Shown here in pieces: positions 14,401 to 21,266 of a stretch of DNA of 47,502 nt. How positions within the stretch are numbered: position 1 is the stretch's first letter; each line of letters starts with the position of its first letter. The notes under the pieces were generated by a model. The model did no database searches. It was not told the DNA's origin and saw nothing but the letters and a program-made list of their open reading frames with translations. The stretch lies in assembly GCA_001871905.1 (NCBI GenBank), contig MNUG01000031.1:1-47502 (forward strand). Reading direction: 5' to 3'. This DNA is from Alphaproteobacteria bacterium CG1_02_46_17 (GTDB lineage: Bacteria > Pseudomonadota > Alphaproteobacteria > Micavibrionales > Micavibrionaceae). A program made the position numbers and the translations under genes.

Positions 14401-14438
14401 AAAAACTTTCTGTTTTGTTTTCCGTGTGTTATCCTGTT

Positions 14439-14446
14439 AGGAGGTG
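14439..14446 (+). promoter_or_regulatory. near-complete Shine-Dalgarno sequence
   Basis: AGGAGGTG is fully complementary to the usual 16S 3' end. It lies 7 bases before an ATG at 14454 that opens a nine-codon ORF, not before a start of the long downstream gene. It is the strongest ribosome binding site I saw in the window. Confidence 0.75.
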
Positions 14447-14453
14447 TCTAAAA

Positions 14454-14483
14454 ATGGTGTTTTGGCAGGTGGTCGGGGTATGA
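14454..14483 (+). CDS. nine-codon leader peptide ORF
   Basis: ATG at 14454 opens a peptide MVFWQVVGV and ends at TGA 14481-14483. The stop overlaps the ATG at 14480 of the next gene (ATGA), the arrangement used for translational coupling. The strong ribosome binding site at 14439 is correctly spaced for this ORF. Four of nine residues are Val and one is Trp. Either the peptide serves only to load ribosomes onto the array mRNA, or the codons sense something. A GTG at 14444 in the frame of the long gene overlaps the AGGAGG itself and is therefore a poor start. This is inference from sequence layout. Confidence 0.45.
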   Translation: MVFWQVVGV

Positions 14484-15856
14484 ACTTTTCTCCATCGGGA
14501 ATCCCTTCTATGGGAATAGCGTCAAGAATGACGAAGCTGAGGAAGGCTTTGCGGACATTTGTGCTGCTTGGAGCCTGTCTTCCGGTTGTCTTGACCCCTG
14601 TTTTATCTGCTAAGGCAACCCCCAATTATAACGTGACCCCCTACTACAACCCTATTTGTAATTGTTGTATTCTGGTCGGGGAGGTCATGCATGAAATTTT
14701 CTGGGGAACCGGACTCTGGACAACCCCAGATGATTTCCAGAATGAATTTTATATCCGTGATATGTTTCAGGATCGTTTTGAACCCGCCATGAAGCAGATG
14801 ACGGACTCGTTCCGTGCCATCATTCTGACCAATGCCTTGATGATTGGAGCCTTCATTGATGGGCAGGCCGAGCTGAATGCCCTGGCAAGTGTCCAGAAAT
14901 TGAACGCACAGACGATCAAGGACTATCAGGTCAGTGACCAGATTTGTCGTTTTGGCACATTGAGCCGTTCCTTGGCTTTAAGTGATGATAAAAGTCGCAC
15001 AGTCCAGATGGGCTTGATGTCTCAAATCCTCAATCGCCAGTTAATGAAAGATAATATGAATTCTGGGGATGCAGGGGAAGATGGAACAACGCTTGGGCGC
15101 TCTGCGGATAAAAAGGGAAGATGGAAGCAATACAAACAGAAATTCTGTGACCCCAGAGATAGCAACAGGTCTCTTGGATCTTCCACGGCTGCAGAAAAAT
15201 GTGAAACAACCAGTGACACCCAGTTGAACAGAGATATTGATCTGACTAGGACTCTGGATGCTCCGAAGTCTCTGGAGATAAATTTTGACGAGGCATCTCC
15301 CACCCTGACCAAAGATGAAGAGAACATCATGGCATTGGGAGAAAATATCTATGCGCATGATCTCTCCCTCAATCTTGGGAGATCCGATCTCTTGAGAATT
15401 AAGCAAAATGGAAGTGATGAGCAGATCAGAAAACTTGTGGATTTCAGGTCATTGGTTGCCAAGCGGTCGGTCGCAGCTAACTCCTTTGCGGCTTACGCTG
15501 GAATGAAAGCAGCTGGCGGGGCGTCCTCCAAAACATATCTGGAAAATGTTGCCAAAGAGTTGGGATTAAGTTCTGCCACGGATATGAAAGCCCTGATTGG
15601 AGATAATCCAAGCTATTACACACAGATGGATTTTTTAGCCAAGAGGCTCTATCAGACCCCACAATTTTATGCCAATTTGTATGATTCGCCGAATAATGTC
15701 GGACGCCAACAAGCGGCCATTAAGGGAATCTCCTTGATGCAGGACCGTGATATATATGAGAGCCTGCAAAGATCGGAAATGCTGCTCTCCACGTTGATGG
15801 AGGTCTATGTTCTCAAGCAACAAGATAGCTATTTTGCCAAAGGAATGAAGCATTAA
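14480..15856 (+). CDS. array paralogue 1: exported protein of unrecognised family, short Cys motif
   Basis: First of four tandem paralogues; I do not recognise the family. From the ATG at 14480 it is 458 aa (470 aa if a GTG at 14444 is used). A basic stretch (TKLRKALR) precedes a hydrophobic signal segment ending near LSAKA. A CNCC motif follows at about residue 60. The shared module then runs from about 100 to the end: LMIGAFIDG, KDYQVSDQICRFGTLSRSLA, KFCDPRD, NRDIDLTRTLD, VAKRSVAANSF, SSKTYLENV, IGDNPSYYTQMD, RLYQTPQFYANLYD and RSEMLLSTLMEVYVL. It is likely periplasmic or surface located. AGGTGG lies 7 bases before the ATG. The next gene starts directly at its stop (TAAATG). Confidence 0.8.
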   Translation: MNFSPSGIPSMGIASRMTKLRKALRTFVLLGACLPVVLTPVLSAKATPNYNVTPYYNPICNCCILVGEVMHEIFWGTGLWTTPDDFQNEFYIRDMFQDRFEPAMKQMTDSFRAIILTNALMIGAFIDGQAELNALASVQKLNAQTIKDYQVSDQICRFGTLSRSLALSDDKSRTVQMGLMSQILNRQLMKDNMNSGDAGEDGTTLGRSADKKGRWKQYKQKFCDPRDSNRSLGSSTAAEKCETTSDTQLNRDIDLTRTLDAPKSLEINFDEASPTLTKDEENIMALGENIYAHDLSLNLGRSDLLRIKQNGSDEQIRKLVDFRSLVAKRSVAANSFAAYAGMKAAGGASSKTYLENVAKELGLSSATDMKALIGDNPSYYTQMDFLAKRLYQTPQFYANLYDSPNNVGRQQAAIKGISLMQDRDIYESLQRSEMLLSTLMEVYVLKQQDSYFAKGMKH

Positions 15857-17164
15857 ATGAGCTGGACCATGAAGATAAAACAAAATTTTCTCGGACTGCT
15901 TTCCGCACTTCTTGTGTTGGGAGCAACTTCGCCAGCCTATGCATTCTGTACCTGCTGTATGTGCGTGTGTCCTTACATCTGTTGTAATATGGGGACAACA
16001 TATTCTTATATCCAGAATGCGTTCAGCCAGTATCGCTCGAACTTTATTATGAATTCCTACTACAAAAACCAGTTCGAAAAGCAAGGGTTGATGCCAATGG
16101 CAGATTCATTGCGCAATCAAATCATCACGTCTGCCATGATGATCGGGGCTTTTCTGGACGGAACCTCGACAAACGCCGCGTTGGCGAATGTGCAGTCTCT
16201 TAATGCCAACACAATGCGCGACTATCAGGTCAGCGATTCAATTTGTAAGTTTGGAACACTCTCTCGTTCTCTAGCCGCAACAGAGGCAAAAGCGAATACC
16301 CAACAGCTGGTTATGAGCGAAATTGGACTGGCTCGAAATCTGGGAACACAATTTAGTTCTGCAGCAACAGGGCGCGGTCGCGATAACAACAGCCGATTAT
16401 ATTCTTTTGTAGAACGTTATTGTGACACACGGGATAACAACAGGGGTTTAAGCTCAATTTGTAAGGCTCTGACAGATCCGTTGGCCACACGAGATGTCGA
16501 GTATAATAGGGACGTGGATTTTACTCGCACTCTTGATGACAAGAAGACACTCAACATCAATCTGACAGATAATACTTTGACCAGGGATGAGACTGCCGTA
16601 ATTTCCTTGGGAAGTTTTCTGTACGGGCATCGTCTGGATACCAAGAGGATATCCCCGTCTATTATCAATGAGGCTCATGGATCGATAGAGCGTTATGCGT
16701 TGGTTCGTTCGATTGTCGCAAGACGGGCCGCGGCCCAGAACAGCTTTAATGCGATGGTTGCAATGAAATCGGGAGGAAGTGGGGCCTCAAAAACTTATAT
16801 GCAGAGCGTTCTCTCGAACCTTGGAATGTCATCCTCCGAGATTTCAAAATATTTGACCGGTAAATATCTGGGGTCATCACCAAAAGCCGGATACGACGAC
16901 GCGAAGGAACCCAGTTACTATGCGCAGATGGATATCCTTACCAAGCGTTTGTATCAGGATCCGGCCTTCTATGCGAACTTGATGGACACGAAGGCCAACG
17001 TCAAAAGAATCTCGGCCTCATTGGATGCATTGGATTTGGCGCAGACACGAGATATCTACAAATCGACCACACGTTCTGAGATGTTGATGGCGGTCTTGTT
17101 GGAACTTGAAGCCCGTAAGCGCGATGATAATGTTGCAAAGAATTTGGTAAGCGATAGTGAATAA
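15857..17164 (+). CDS. array paralogue 2: exported, extremely Cys-rich mature N-terminus
   Basis: Second paralogue, 435 aa. The signal peptide is clear: MKIKQ, hydrophobic residues 11-23, and cleavage after AYA (residue 29). The mature chain would begin F-CTCCMCVCPYICC, with seven cysteines in 13 residues (31, 33, 34, 36, 38, 42, 43), which suggests metal binding or disulfide cross-linking. The shared module follows: MMIGAFLDG, RDYQVSDSICKFGTLSRSLA, RYCDTRD, SSICK, NRDVDFTRTLD, SKTYMQSVLSNLG, EPSYYAQMD, RLYQDPAFYANLMD and RSEMLMAVLLELE. A distinct insertion, about ten residues longer than in the others, lies before EPSYYAQMD. The start ATG abuts the previous stop and AAAGGAA sits in the end of paralogue 1. 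Confidence 0.85.
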   Translation: MSWTMKIKQNFLGLLSALLVLGATSPAYAFCTCCMCVCPYICCNMGTTYSYIQNAFSQYRSNFIMNSYYKNQFEKQGLMPMADSLRNQIITSAMMIGAFLDGTSTNAALANVQSLNANTMRDYQVSDSICKFGTLSRSLAATEAKANTQQLVMSEIGLARNLGTQFSSAATGRGRDNNSRLYSFVERYCDTRDNNRGLSSICKALTDPLATRDVEYNRDVDFTRTLDDKKTLNINLTDNTLTRDETAVISLGSFLYGHRLDTKRISPSIINEAHGSIERYALVRSIVARRAAAQNSFNAMVAMKSGGSGASKTYMQSVLSNLGMSSSEISKYLTGKYLGSSPKAGYDDAKEPSYYAQMDILTKRLYQDPAFYANLMDTKANVKRISASLDALDLAQTRDIYKSTTRSEMLMAVLLELEARKRDDNVAKNLVSDSE

Positions 17165-17188
17165 TAAAGGGGAATGGTGGAGTATAAC

Positions 17189-18469
17189 ATGAAGAATGAA
17201 CAACAACACAGCCCTGAAAAAGTGATGGGAAATAAGGTACGGACGAGCATGGCAAATAAAATAAAAACTCTCTCGCTTCTGTCTGTTGTGGCTATTCTTG
17301 TGTTTGGCGGGACAGTTCGCCAAGCTCAGGCTTGTGGTGCTTGTACTGACTGCGGAACATGGCAGTCTTATGTAACACAGGAAATGAACCTGCATGAAAA
17401 CTGGATGATTACCGAATGGTGGGAGCAATATTTGAAGCCCGCCATGCAAAAATATACAGATGATACCAGAAACGCGTTTATTACCGATGCTTTGATGATC
17501 GGGGCTTTTCTGGATGGAGAAAGTGAATTGAACAGCCTGCGTACCGTGCAGGAATTGAATGCGGTGACGATGAAAGATTATCAGGTCAGTGATGCGATTT
17601 GTAAATTCGGAACACTCTCTCGTTCTCTGGCGGCCTCCGAAGGTAAAGCCAAAGCCAACCAGATCGTGTTGTCGGAGAGATCGCAAAACCGCCAGCTGGG
17701 GCATGAAAATATGGCCTCCGCAGAAGGTGGAACAAGAGACAGAATTGCGCGCTACAAACAATTCGTTAAAACATTTTGTGATCCGGATGATTATGGCAGT
17801 GCCATGAAGGAACTTTGTCCAACGGCACCATCGGATAAAACCCGCAATCTGGATATCAATTATACCCGTCTGGTTGATGCGCGTAGAACACTGAATGTGG
17901 ATTTTACATCTGCAACAGCTAAGGCTAACCCGACGTCAGACGAAGAATCCGTCATTGCTCTGGCAAATAATCTATATGCTCACGAAGTTCTGGAGCGTAT
18001 GGATCCTGGGGGGCTACAAGCCACTGATGATGTTGATAACCGGACGACATATCAGGATCAACGAGCAATCGTTGCAAAACGATCAGTCGCCGAGAATTCG
18101 TTCAACGCAATTGTTGGGACCAAAGCGTCGGGAACGATTGCATCCAAAACATACATGCAGAATGTCCTGACCAAATTGGGATTGTCATCTGCAGATGCCT
18201 TGAAGTATCTGGGAGATAATCCGAGTTACGATGCCCAGATGGAAGTCTTGACTAAGAAGTTGTATCAGGACCCGGCTTTTTATGCGAATTTGATGGATAC
18301 TCCAGCGAACGTTGAACGGCAATATGCTGCCCTTCAGGCATTTGGACTGATGCAACGCAGAGATATTTTTGAAACTATTTTGCGCTCTGAAATGTTGCTG
18401 TCAACCATTCTTGAAATGGAGCTATCAGCTTATCAGGATGACATACAGAACCAGCAGAACAAGAGATAA
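17189..18469 (+). CDS. array paralogue 3: exported, CxxCxxC mature N-terminus
   Basis: Third paralogue, 426 aa from the ATG at 17189, which has TGGAG six bases upstream; an in-frame ATG at 17174 has its purine stretch too close. A long basic N-terminal region is followed by a hydrophobic segment and a cleavage site AQA directly before CGACTDCG, so the mature protein starts with a CxxCxxC cluster. It is not a canonical lipobox (Q at -2). The shared module follows: LMIGAFLDG, KDYQVSDAICKFGTLSRSLA, TFCDPDD, KELC, LDINYTRLVD, VAKRSVAENSF, SKTYMQNVLTKLGLS, LGDNPSYDAQME, KLYQDPAFYANLMD and RSEMLLSTILEME. It lies 24 bases after paralogue 2. Confidence 0.85.
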   Translation: MKNEQQHSPEKVMGNKVRTSMANKIKTLSLLSVVAILVFGGTVRQAQACGACTDCGTWQSYVTQEMNLHENWMITEWWEQYLKPAMQKYTDDTRNAFITDALMIGAFLDGESELNSLRTVQELNAVTMKDYQVSDAICKFGTLSRSLAASEGKAKANQIVLSERSQNRQLGHENMASAEGGTRDRIARYKQFVKTFCDPDDYGSAMKELCPTAPSDKTRNLDINYTRLVDARRTLNVDFTSATAKANPTSDEESVIALANNLYAHEVLERMDPGGLQATDDVDNRTTYQDQRAIVAKRSVAENSFNAIVGTKASGTIASKTYMQNVLTKLGLSSADALKYLGDNPSYDAQMEVLTKKLYQDPAFYANLMDTPANVERQYAALQAFGLMQRRDIFETILRSEMLLSTILEMELSAYQDDIQNQQNKR

Positions 18470-18487
18470 TCGGGAAGACTTTGTGTG

Positions 18488-20404
18488 ATGGCATATCGAC
18501 CTAAAATATTCGGAAAAATAGCGGCATGCAAAAATACGCTGACTGCATGCCGTGCCGTTGTAATGACGTCCGTGCTGCTGGTCGCCGTCGGGGTTAATCT
18601 TCCATCATCAGCCTTGGCGTCAGTCACTCCTGATAATCAGAAAGCAATCATCGAAATCCACGGGACGGGAGTCTCTCCACTGTCCAAAGTTGCGTTAAGC
18701 GCAGGAAAAGGTCAGGCCATTCAGGCCCAGGCTGATAAAAATGGAAATTTTGTATTCACGGGATTGCAGTATTTTTCCTTTGTCCCTCTCAATTTGAGAA
18801 TATCCTTGCCGGATCAAAGTAGTGAGGCGGTAGTGGTTCCCCGTTCTGTTCTGGATATTGCTCTTGATCCTTATGGTTCAATGGTTTCTGTATCGGGAAA
18901 AATATCGCCAGCCGGGAGTATTGCAATTAATATCGATGGAGTAGAGGCCAATTCCCAGATTGCCGGACAAAGTGGAGAATTCTCTATTAATGCCAGAACA
19001 CCCTTGGGTTTGGCAGATGGAACCTCGAGTATCATGGCTAGCATCATTAATGTTGGTGAAGCCTGCTGCCCGAGTACCTTGGTGCCTGTTGCTCCGGTAC
19101 AATTATTAATTTCGAGTATTGGTGTCCGTCACAGTTCACCGACGAATCCTGTTCTGAAGAAACCCCCTGTTCAGAACGCGCCTTCTTATATGCCACCAGC
19201 ACAAAAACAGAATCAAAAAGAAAGCCCCGCTCTCGAAAAGGATCCGGCTAAAGAAAAGCCAAAGAAATCCCCTGCACCCTATATGGTTTTGGGAACCGTA
19301 CAAGACAGATTTGAATTGGATATTTCTGACCAAACACAAGCGATCAGCTTCCCGAGTTCATCTTATGATTCTACATGGGTAGGGGGAATGAAGAAGCTAA
19401 CAGATATGGTTCGCAATGCTATTGTCACCCGAACCCTGATGATCGGGGCATTTATTGATGGTCGTGCGACCAATGCGGCCTTGGGATCTGTTCGGAAATT
19501 GAATGCGCAGGCTATGAAAGATTACCAGGTCAGCGATACAATTTGTAAATTTGGAACACTGACAAGGTCAATTGCCGGAAGTGATACGAAGGTTGATGTC
19601 AACAAATTGGCATTCAACAAGATTCTTCTTGATCGTGATAGTCAGGTTCTTCACACCATGTATGGTGAGTCGACCAGAGGCATGGTCGAAAATTTGAATG
19701 ACTTCAAGGCAAAATATTGTGAAGGGGTTGATGCAAACAACGGATTATCCGGATACTGTAATTCAACCCAGTCTGTACCGGACAAGTTCTTTAATCGTGA
19801 CGTCGATTATACGAGGGTCTTTGATTTGCCCCTGACTCTGGATGTCGATTATAGCGATGCAACTCTGACAGAACAGGAGCAACAATTGATCTCTCTGTTT
19901 CAGAACTTGTCATTAAGGGATCCGGTCTATGGTCTGGACAATGGGAAAACTGCCCAGAAGCAAGACAAGACTGACGATTTTCAGGATTTGCATCAAGTCC
20001 TTGCTGCACGCCAACTGGTTGGAAACACATTTGCCAATCAAGTCGCGATGAAGGCCAAAGGAAATGGTAGCTCTGCAACCTATATGAAGAATGTTCTAAC
20101 CAAACTGGGTCTGGGTGCGGCAGATGCTACAAAATTGATTGGTGATAATCCGAGCTATGAAGCTCAAATGGAAATTCTAACTAAGAAGCTGTATCAGGAC
20201 CCTGCTTTTTATGCGAACCTATATGACACGCCCGCCAACGTTGATCGTCAAAAAGTGGCCATTACGGCTGTTGATTTAATGCAGGAGCGCGACTTTCTGG
20301 GGTCCCTGAAGCGTAAGGAAATGCTGCTCTCTGAGTTGCTGGAAATGAAATTGCGCCGCAGAAGTGAGGAGCTTAATCAGGGGGCATCAGCCGAGGGCAG
20401 ATAA
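18488..20404 (+). CDS. array paralogue 4: exported, beta-rich N-domain plus shared module
   Basis: Fourth and longest paralogue, 638 aa from the ATG at 18488 (GTG at 18485 possible). The signal segment ends near SALAS (residue 45). Instead of a Cys cluster it has about 155 residues of alternating hydrophobic/polar, Gly- and Ser-rich sequence (IIEIHGTGVSPLSKVAL, NGNFVFTGL, VSGKISPAGSIAINIDG, GEFSINARTPLG), which suggests an Ig-like or other beta-sandwich domain, with one CC pair (GEACCPS). A Pro/Lys/Gln linker follows (about 208-262). The shared module starts near 290: LMIGAFIDG, KDYQVSDTICKFGTLTRSIA, KYCEG, SGYC, NRDVDYTRVFD, IGDNPSYEAQME, KLYQDPAFYANLYD and KEMLLSELLEMKLRRR. It lies 18 bases after paralogue 3. 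The extra domain may bind a surface ligand or the envelope. Confidence 0.85.
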   Translation: MAYRPKIFGKIAACKNTLTACRAVVMTSVLLVAVGVNLPSSALASVTPDNQKAIIEIHGTGVSPLSKVALSAGKGQAIQAQADKNGNFVFTGLQYFSFVPLNLRISLPDQSSEAVVVPRSVLDIALDPYGSMVSVSGKISPAGSIAINIDGVEANSQIAGQSGEFSINARTPLGLADGTSSIMASIINVGEACCPSTLVPVAPVQLLISSIGVRHSSPTNPVLKKPPVQNAPSYMPPAQKQNQKESPALEKDPAKEKPKKSPAPYMVLGTVQDRFELDISDQTQAISFPSSSYDSTWVGGMKKLTDMVRNAIVTRTLMIGAFIDGRATNAALGSVRKLNAQAMKDYQVSDTICKFGTLTRSIAGSDTKVDVNKLAFNKILLDRDSQVLHTMYGESTRGMVENLNDFKAKYCEGVDANNGLSGYCNSTQSVPDKFFNRDVDYTRVFDLPLTLDVDYSDATLTEQEQQLISLFQNLSLRDPVYGLDNGKTAQKQDKTDDFQDLHQVLAARQLVGNTFANQVAMKAKGNGSSATYMKNVLTKLGLGAADATKLIGDNPSYEAQMEILTKKLYQDPAFYANLYDTPANVDRQKVAITAVDLMQERDFLGSLKRKEMLLSELLEMKLRRRSEELNQGASAEGR

Positions 20405-20414
20405 ATAGGTTTGT

Positions 20415-21266
20415 CTATTTGCTCTGGAGTTTGATCTCACCGACCGCCAGAATACCAGTATCTCTTCTCTCAAACAAAAGAACCGCACCTTGAGCTTCTT
20501 TTGAAGGGGCCCATTCAAAATGATACGCGCCCGCAGCACCTTTCCAATCGGAGAGAGGGATAAATCGTGACACCACATGAAGGTAATTTTGAGTTACCCC
20601 TTCGTTTGGTCCCATGGCGATAGTTGTTGTAACCGGTTTCCTGTATTCAACCAATTGGACGTAGGCGCGATCATTGAAGTCTTGCAATGGCCCGAACTCC
20701 ATATCTGGAAGGTTGACATGATAGTTTGATCCCCCGTCGGAAACAATATCAAGGCCCAATGGCCGATGCCCTTTTCCATCAATAATGGCTTGTACAACTT
20801 CCTTGAATAAAAAGCCCTTCAAGGCGGTTTGGCTGTTCAGGAATATCTGTGGAGTGATGCGTGGCACGCGTAGTAACGCAGAATAATAGACTTGGCGTTC
20901 TTTACATTGCTGTGTTGTCAACGGATCATCCGGGACGAGAGTTAGGATATTAACATGGCAGGCCAGTGCGATCACATCAGTCTTGCGGATCAGATCATTG
21001 AAAAACTGGTCAGCAGGAGGACAAAACATACATCCCGGATCGGAAAAGAGCTCGAGGACAATTGGCCCCTCGCTAAATTCCTGATTAAGGTCACGCCCCT
21101 CGAAGGGCCAGCTATACCCGAAAAAATGGGTTCCGGCAGCCATACCATCCGGTTTTACGTACATGACTGAGGCTCCGGGAGCTTCGGCTGAAAAACAAGG
21201 CGAAGGGTTGAGGGAAATCATCAGAATACCCAAAGCCCACAAAGAAAATAGGATGCGCTGTTTCAT
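20415..21266 (-). CDS. exported DUF1223 thioredoxin-fold protein
   Basis: DUF1223 family, exported thioredoxin-like proteins of unknown role. The 283-aa protein has a signal peptide (about residues 1-26, ending CFSA). The family segment IVLELFSDPGCMFCPPAD carries the CxxC pair (CMFC). The regions around TPQIFLN and the Lys/Gly stretch fit the fold. It is convergent with the four-gene array, only about 10 bases beyond its end, and divergent from gpt. An exported CxxC protein beside exported Cys-rich proteins invites the idea of a redox partner, but they are on opposite strands and that is inference. Confidence 0.85.
   Translation of the reverse strand: MKQRILFSLWALGILMISLNPSPCFSAEAPGASVMYVKPDGMAAGTHFFGYSWPFEGRDLNQEFSEGPIVLELFSDPGCMFCPPADQFFNDLIRKTDVIALACHVNILTLVPDDPLTTQQCKERQVYYSALLRVPRITPQIFLNSQTALKGFLFKEVVQAIIDGKGHRPLGLDIVSDGGSNYHVNLPDMEFGPLQDFNDRAYVQLVEYRKPVTTTIAMGPNEGVTQNYLHVVSRFIPLSDWKGAAGAYHFEWAPSKEAQGAVLLFERRDTGILAVGEIKLQSK

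Follow-up and report, generated by a model that had tools for sequence, protein, structure and literature searches.

The window analysed here, a stretch of 47,502 nucleotides that makes up the whole of contig C24 of Alphaproteobacteria bacterium CG1_02_46_17 (G000; 2.07 Mb in 40 contigs; in the following, G and L numbers denote genomes and loci), carries four consecutive forward-strand genes that very probably are tandem paralogues of TraW/IcmX, the VirB5-like channel subunit of type IVB secretion systems. Paralogue 1 spans positions 14444–15856 when read from a GTG at 14444 (470 residues; 458 residues from the ATG at 14480). Paralogue 2 (15857–17164, 435 residues) is cysteine-rich behind its signal-like stretch, paralogue 3 (17174–18469, 431 residues) is the slowest evolving copy and was used in both structure models described below, and paralogue 4 (18485–20404, 639 residues), the fastest evolving one, consists of an N-terminal extension of about 265 residues followed by the module common to all four. 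An initial annotation of this DNA had given gaps of 0–24 bases; the genes do abut, but the range depends on the starts chosen, and the gaps between the open reading frames (ORFs) are 0, 9 and 15 bp with those used here.

The common module comprises about 360 residues, is probably exported and forms the C-terminal part of the proteins. In a MAFFT alignment, paralogues 2, 3 and 4 are 42, 44 and 37% identical to paralogue 1, with 92 invariant columns. The conserved blocks noted earlier all lie within these columns, although paralogue 1 deviates slightly from their wording (ICRFGTL for ICKFGTL, TYL for [ST]YM). A search of the genome itself at E 10 found no fifth copy, while the four themselves score 3e-289 to 1e-80. 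ORFs, alignment and genome search thus bear out the description of four same-strand tandem genes with a common module. A signal peptide, predicted earlier for all four, is likely to be present: each has a Sec-signal-like N-terminus, judged by eye, and a crude test found a hydrophobic 12-mer within the first ~65 residues of all 134 full-length relatives. The extension of paralogue 4 is Ig-like (immunoglobulin-like) by its ‘ADKNGNF’ repeats and by a weak match to a repeat adhesin; its Ca_tandemer repeat match (E 5.6e-4, 20.2 bits) falls below the cut-off of 50.

Libraries of known families do not name the module. The Pfam search that the initial annotation had suggested and a search of PHROGs, both up to E 1, as well as one of NCBIfam up to E 10, gave weak matches only, none at the curated cut-off where one exists. 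In Pfam at E 1 no family was found for paralogues 1–3 and only a chance Extensin match for paralogue 4, so that the curated model of the type IVA subunit VirB5/TrwJ was not matched either. The proteins of the window gave nothing usable against PDB sequences, a profile of the genus found no relative among viral contigs, and a search with paralogue 3 found none among plasmids. The family is thus unrecognised in the sense that no curated model covers it, but it is not without known relatives, since profile, structure and neighbourhood place it with TraW and IcmX; the initial annotation had named a match to a characterised family as grounds against an unknown family, and such grounds now exist.

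Among the named relatives are Micavibrio sp. UBA6212 (96% identity) and UBA5572 (70%), which marks the source as an alphaproteobacterium of the Micavibrio type. The order was surveyed with a profile of the window's four proteins and, for 20 genomes, with a profile of 58 diverse members (58 of 114 members, picked at <60% identity out of 134 full-length ones). The family is present in 55 of the 58 genomes of the order, our own included: in 37/37 of the same bacterial family, with a weak match in one of them (G036, E 2e-12), and in 18/21 of other families. Neither profile found a member in G039 (62% complete), G042 or G055. Array loci read in the same bacterial family hold one to five called genes, mostly three to five. 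Other families of the order gave up to 8 matches per genome, some of which are pieces of one gene, as are several matches of the genome searches. Calling ORFs by the longest frame miscalled a few genes, including one array copy in L053 (G031) and the member of L137 (G344; C117:8058-9134). Among 385 genomes drawn evenly from the class, the family occurs in 8, 4 of them outside the order; at most four candidates per genome were scored, and copy numbers in this sample are lower bounds. One genome outside the order (G158; L138, C1:56462-60945) has a tandem array of its own with at least four matches, in a stretch that as far as read lacks dot genes, and amplification may therefore have happened more than once. 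The survey that had been proposed to look for arrays in other alphaproteobacteria accordingly describes a family typical of one clade and mostly arranged in tandem.

Length, export signal and neighbourhood had led us to guess TraW/IcmX before this was tested. We compared the 58-sequence profile by hhalign with 21 Tra proteins from conjugative plasmids (L099–L105; the TraV, TraF and TraE profiles being single sequences). It matched TraW with 97.3% probability (E 2.1e-11 over 287 columns) and none of the other 20 above 0.5%; 100 column shuffles of TraW reached at most 0.7%, and reversed TraW 0.0%. The 23 order-level members alone match TraW at 98.0% (E 1.4e-13) and are linked to the set from the bacterial family at E 5e-49. 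The family is thus homologous to TraW. In the opposite direction, a TraW hidden Markov model applied to 821 ORFs from the loci retrieved placed family members in the first 15 positions, of which just three had E <0.01 (best 2e-4). Three conserved cysteines occur in the same order in 130/135, 125/136 and 121/136 members and in all six TraW; their spacing is 59 and 13 residues in paralogue 3, 57–59 and 14 in five TraW, and 74 and 13 in the sixth. The alignment pairs ‘REFE.FE.GRRYAN’ of TraW with the family block ‘PSY.AQME.LTKKLYQDP’. The signal-like N-terminus and a length of about 400–470 residues likewise appear to agree with TraW/IcmX, last copies being longer.

Structure comparison hints at the same identity. 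An AlphaFold2 (AF2) model of the trimmed module of paralogue 3, built from 24 sequences taken from the window and from five loci of its genus, has a predicted local distance difference test score (pLDDT) of 58 and a predicted template-modelling score of 0.46. Its first match by Foldseek among 350,542 PDB chains is 9ngy_AP1 (probability 0.87, E 0.08; next match 0.08, E 1.4), and VIA-align, applied to 180 Foldseek candidates, gave the same chain a Z of 7.8 over 239 residues (root-mean-square deviation 6.7), the next candidate reaching 5.4 over 73. Entry 9ngy is the in situ structure of the DotA–IcmX protochannel; as chain FP1 is DotA, AP1 (417 residues) was taken as IcmX. The match by itself is suggestive and gains weight from having followed the prediction of TraW/IcmX. 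Structure prediction of the module, proposed in the initial annotation, therefore put the IcmX chain first, but with a model and an E-value that call for caution.

The neighbourhood of the family links it to a type IVB system. In 20 of the 39 genomes with an array locus read, a member lies 155–325 bp from dotI and divergent to it, and in two further genomes the distance from a member to a dot gene is less than 6 kb. Outside the window's genus, most of the genera read have the array divergent to three genes, identified by Pfam as those of DotI/IcmL (E 2e-64), DotH/IcmK (E 6e-79) and a protein resembling TrbI, here taken as the putative DotG. Within the window's genus this link is kept in just one of nine genomes (G008). 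Outside the order, three of the four positive genomes have a member within ~2 kb of a dot gene: beside DotO in G344, near DotH in G102 and near DotI-DotH-DotG in G146, the members of the latter two being divergent to the dot genes with one gene between. DotH was detected in 53/58 genomes of the order and in 16 of the 385 of the class sample, and all 8 family-positive genomes of that sample are among the 16 (hypergeometric 1.2e-12, or 5.7e-7 for the 4 genomes outside the family, relatedness being ignored).

The core of a type IVB (Dot/Icm, MPF_I) system is present in the genome itself: DotI, DotH, DotG, DotO, DotA and a coupling ATPase. Contig C34 encodes two DotI (PF11393 twice), DotH (PF12293) and DotG (TrbI). 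Profile comparison of C34 protein clusters with plasmid Tra proteins recovered genes like those of TraP/DotF (95.6%), TraQ (96.4%), TraT (96.3%) and, weakly, TraR (46%), and the DotO cluster matched TraU at 100% (E 8e-110). The counterparts of DotB, DotC and DotD (TraJ 100%, TraI 99.9%, TraH 94.2%) could be identified in relatives, for instance in G012. A TraG/TraD-type ATPase domain occurs in 28/29 genomes, and the copy on C36 is a candidate DotL-like coupling ATPase. Two DotI-like genes stand side by side in this genome (L073, 12437–13901), an arrangement that we take to be reminiscent of the DotI/DotJ pair.

Several results weigh against placing the array with TraW/IcmX. The link to TraW is, as far as the profiles go, transitive, the strong match running through divergent order-level members: the window's four proteins alone (E 0.065) and the set from the genus (E 0.048) are not significant against TraW, the set from the bacterial family is marginal (24.9%, E 7.8e-4), and the TraW profile found no match in the genome itself at E 10. 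Against PDB sequences, the family profile, a single divergent member and the TraW profile all gave chance matches only, and no IcmX. The structural model is of low confidence, a Foldseek E of 0.08 is not significant by itself, and VIA-align warns that Z below about 13 may be due to chance for helical models; a poorer AF2 model, that of full-length paralogue 3 (pLDDT 45), missed IcmX and had PDB matches that appear to be random. In eight of the nine genomes of the genus the array follows polA, and the 10–48 kb read around it contain no dot gene; 8 of the 16 DotH-positive genomes of the class sample have no detectable member.

This separation from the dot genes is one reason to consider a role as surface adhesins or as other exported partners whose genes lie beside those of a type IVB system, the proteins not being parts of its channel. 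Such a role would also suit the tandem diversification, the fast-evolving Ig-like extension of the last copy and the promoter-like element that the array has to itself in 6/9 loci of the genus. We nevertheless think it improbable: the TraW profile is matched over the full length, structure puts the IcmX chain first, and presence in 55/58 genomes of the order and 37/37 of the family fits a part of a machine. The idea of a multi-component surface or periplasmic assembly, put forward in the initial annotation, survives in this narrower form, in that the proteins probably belong to an envelope assembly and can be placed with TraW/IcmX of type IVB systems.

A second question is what the machine would transport. 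The relatives detected by sequence are TraW of IncI-type conjugative plasmids and a TraG/TraD-type ATPase is present, as expected if the system were a conjugation machine and the paralogues variants of a mating-pair tip for DNA transfer. However, relaxase PF03432 scores above its cut-off in just 4 of 29 genomes and was not found in our own (other relaxase families were not searched), and according to the available portion of a 2022 survey the systems of Micavibrionales belong to a relaxase-free, protein-secreting subtype (PMC9418006). Missing here and rare in relatives, the relaxase leaves protein a more likely cargo than DNA, and we regard a conjugative role as unlikely. It is highly improbable that the family is an unrelated, all-helical exported one that merely adjoins dot genes and matches TraW by composition, as the non-significant profiles of window and genus and the low model confidence might suggest, given that shuffled and reversed controls stay at or below 0.7%, that the 20 other Tra proteins are unmatched, that cysteine order and spacing are shared, and that an independent structure search puts the protochannel entry first.

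With TraW/IcmX as the most probable identity, the partner of IcmX in the protochannel becomes of interest. Pfam PF11388, the DotA family, matched nowhere, with no positive control, and a TraY/DotA profile was used instead. It found DotA in 28 of the 29 genomes searched. All 19 genomes of the same bacterial family have three DotA-like genes, of about 900–1100 residues where contig ends do not cut them; the three are on one contig in 18 genomes and split in our own, with two on C14 (L128) and one on C11 (L129). Further DotA-like loci were seen at L130, L131, L133 and L136. Among ten genomes of other families, eight have one such gene, G045 possibly two and G044 none. Thirteen DotA-like proteins, of which 11 come from the same bacterial family, gave a profile that matched the solved DotA at E 1.6e-30. 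In a tree (no support values shown), three orthologous groups are common to the window's genus and G012, and the three genes of G016 cluster together; the DotA-like genes thus mostly represent old orthologous groups. Both DotA-like and IcmX-like genes are therefore multiplied in this bacterial family. The two multiplications are not tied to each other, as L061 holds four IcmX-like members in a genome (G038) with one DotA match.

The array is old within the genus. A tree of 133 modules shows each array position of the nine genus genomes as a clade of its own (support 1.00), from which we infer that the four copies were present early in the genus and that their order was kept. The four copies together form one clade (1.00) that excludes the copies of other genera; many of the last copies in these other genera cluster with one another. 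Grouping by genus points to repeated amplification or to homogenisation by lineage. Relative to the window, and with the near-identical L035 set aside, conservation is highest for copy 3 (57–79% in seven genomes) and lowest for copy 4 (module 42–66%, extension 32–57%), PolA being 67–82% identical in six genomes. An extension is carried by the last copy in many genera; in a few outside the window's genus it looks helical. Diversification of a ligand-binding set, the other interpretation offered initially, may apply here, above all to the last copy with its fast-evolving Ig-like extension.

By analogy with IcmX and VirB5, the paralogues would be exported by Sec to the periplasm and sit on DotA (VirB6-like) inside the DotG cage, forming the central protochannel. 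On activation, the outer part of this conduit would extend through the outer membrane and reach the membrane of a target cell. Most likely, several paralogues would serve together in a single machine or as tips that can replace one another, and paralogue 4 would present its Ig-like domain outward. One possibility, which we put forward tentatively and consider rather doubtful, is that Micavibrio-type bacteria make contact with other cells through a chromosomal type IVB machine, the channel of which is a hetero-oligomer in which three DotA and several IcmX paralogues mix or swap, yielding lineage-specific, Ig-tipped conduits suited to different prey. That paralogues mix within a channel and that the system delivers into prey are both inferences, and predation as the purpose of the system is a guess.

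A 30-nucleotide promoter-like element lies upstream of the array on the same strand (14406–14435) and recurs at no more than two mismatches in six of nine loci of the genus. It is nearly identical in the window and L035–L039, the proteins of which differ by up to ~40%. It was not found upstream of the array in L040, L041 and L092, and it is absent from the other loci scanned, our own dot and DotA stretches included. Promoter-like sites in general occurred at chance level, and Rfam gave no match at the gathering score. A leader ORF of nine codons (MVFWQVVGV; 14454–14483), preceded by GGAGG, overlaps the ATG at 14480 in an ATGA; directly before this ATG stands GGTCGGGGT, which recurs in several loci of the genus. 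At the other end, a DUF1223 gene on the reverse strand (20415–21266) converges on the array, as it does in six of the eight genus loci with the next gene in view. Its product is presumably thioredoxin-like, and a link to the conserved cysteines of the module may exist.

In many genera the secretion system is stably linked to hook-associated flagellar genes: the array, where divergent to the dot genes, is often found upstream of flgK-flgL, and dot core genes, array and flgK-flgL lie side by side in L042–L044, L046, L048, L049, L052, L055–L057, L059 and L066. In two f7 genomes (L081, 12282–14884; L094), two genes of another kind, c61 and c62 (~450 and ~410 residues), sit beside dotI, upstream of it. 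They were considered as family members and ruled out as detectable ones, since neither the family nor TraW was matched in profile comparison.

Well-studied type IVB machines have a single gene for the outer piece of the central channel. IcmX of Dot/Icm, which with DotA forms a pentameric protochannel (PDB 9ngy), resembles the present proteins in its similar length and in export, which is probable here; the chain taken as IcmX was their first structural match, with a low-confidence model, and homologues of DotI, DotH, DotG, DotO and DotA accompany them here too. In contrast to IcmX, the present proteins mostly come as three to five diversified tandem copies beside a triplicated DotA, and they have no direct sequence match in the PDB. 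TraW of IncI/IncL-M (R64-type) plasmids shares the profile match, three cysteines with like spacing and a similar length, and in relatives the family adjoins homologues of traM/N/O (of traU in G344). Plasmids, however, have a single traW, which in most of those read is next to traX-traY, whereas here there are multiple copies, the last often with an N-terminal extension, and relaxase PF03432 is rare. Reviews, in the portions available, describe DotA and IcmX as a VirB6-/VirB5-like pentameric assembly of the central axis in Legionella (PMC12857230, PMC12981334), and an excerpt on R388 compares VirB5 with pore-forming proteins and suggests that it may act at the recipient membrane (PMC9259494).

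The nearest precedent for a multiplied channel component, going by the available text, is the tandem VirB6 of Anaplasma, whose type IVA system has four virB6, 8–15 virB2 and no virB5 (PMC7648143). Like the present array, the Rickettsiales system appears, on that text, as an alphaproteobacterial cell-contact system with a tandem channel component, one copy of which has a large extension; there, a type IVA system has its VirB6 part multiplied, and here a type IVB system has both the VirB5-like and the VirB6-like part. A type IVB system in Micavibrionales is already known: the 2022 survey, in the portion available, reports pT4SSi, a Dot/Icm subtype without relaxase, in seven marine members, a system of this kind in this very order, and that portion does not name copies of IcmX or DotA (PMC9418006). 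The accessible part of the 2011 paper on M. aeruginosavorus ARL-13 states that evidence was lacking for both type III and type IV secretion (PMC3189940). Among the matches listed from the open-access literature, no title or beginning of an abstract concerned multiplied IcmX or DotA in the Micavibrio group. Two things appear to be new, namely what this family is and that both parts of the channel are multiplied.

Micavibrio is an epibiotic predator of bacteria. How it acts on its prey is an open question, for which the multiplied DotA and IcmX conduit parts, together with the occurrence of DotH in the order, provide concrete candidate genes. A lineage with several DotA and IcmX paralogues also offers a ready-made test case for whether channels of this kind can be heteromeric or can swap their tips.

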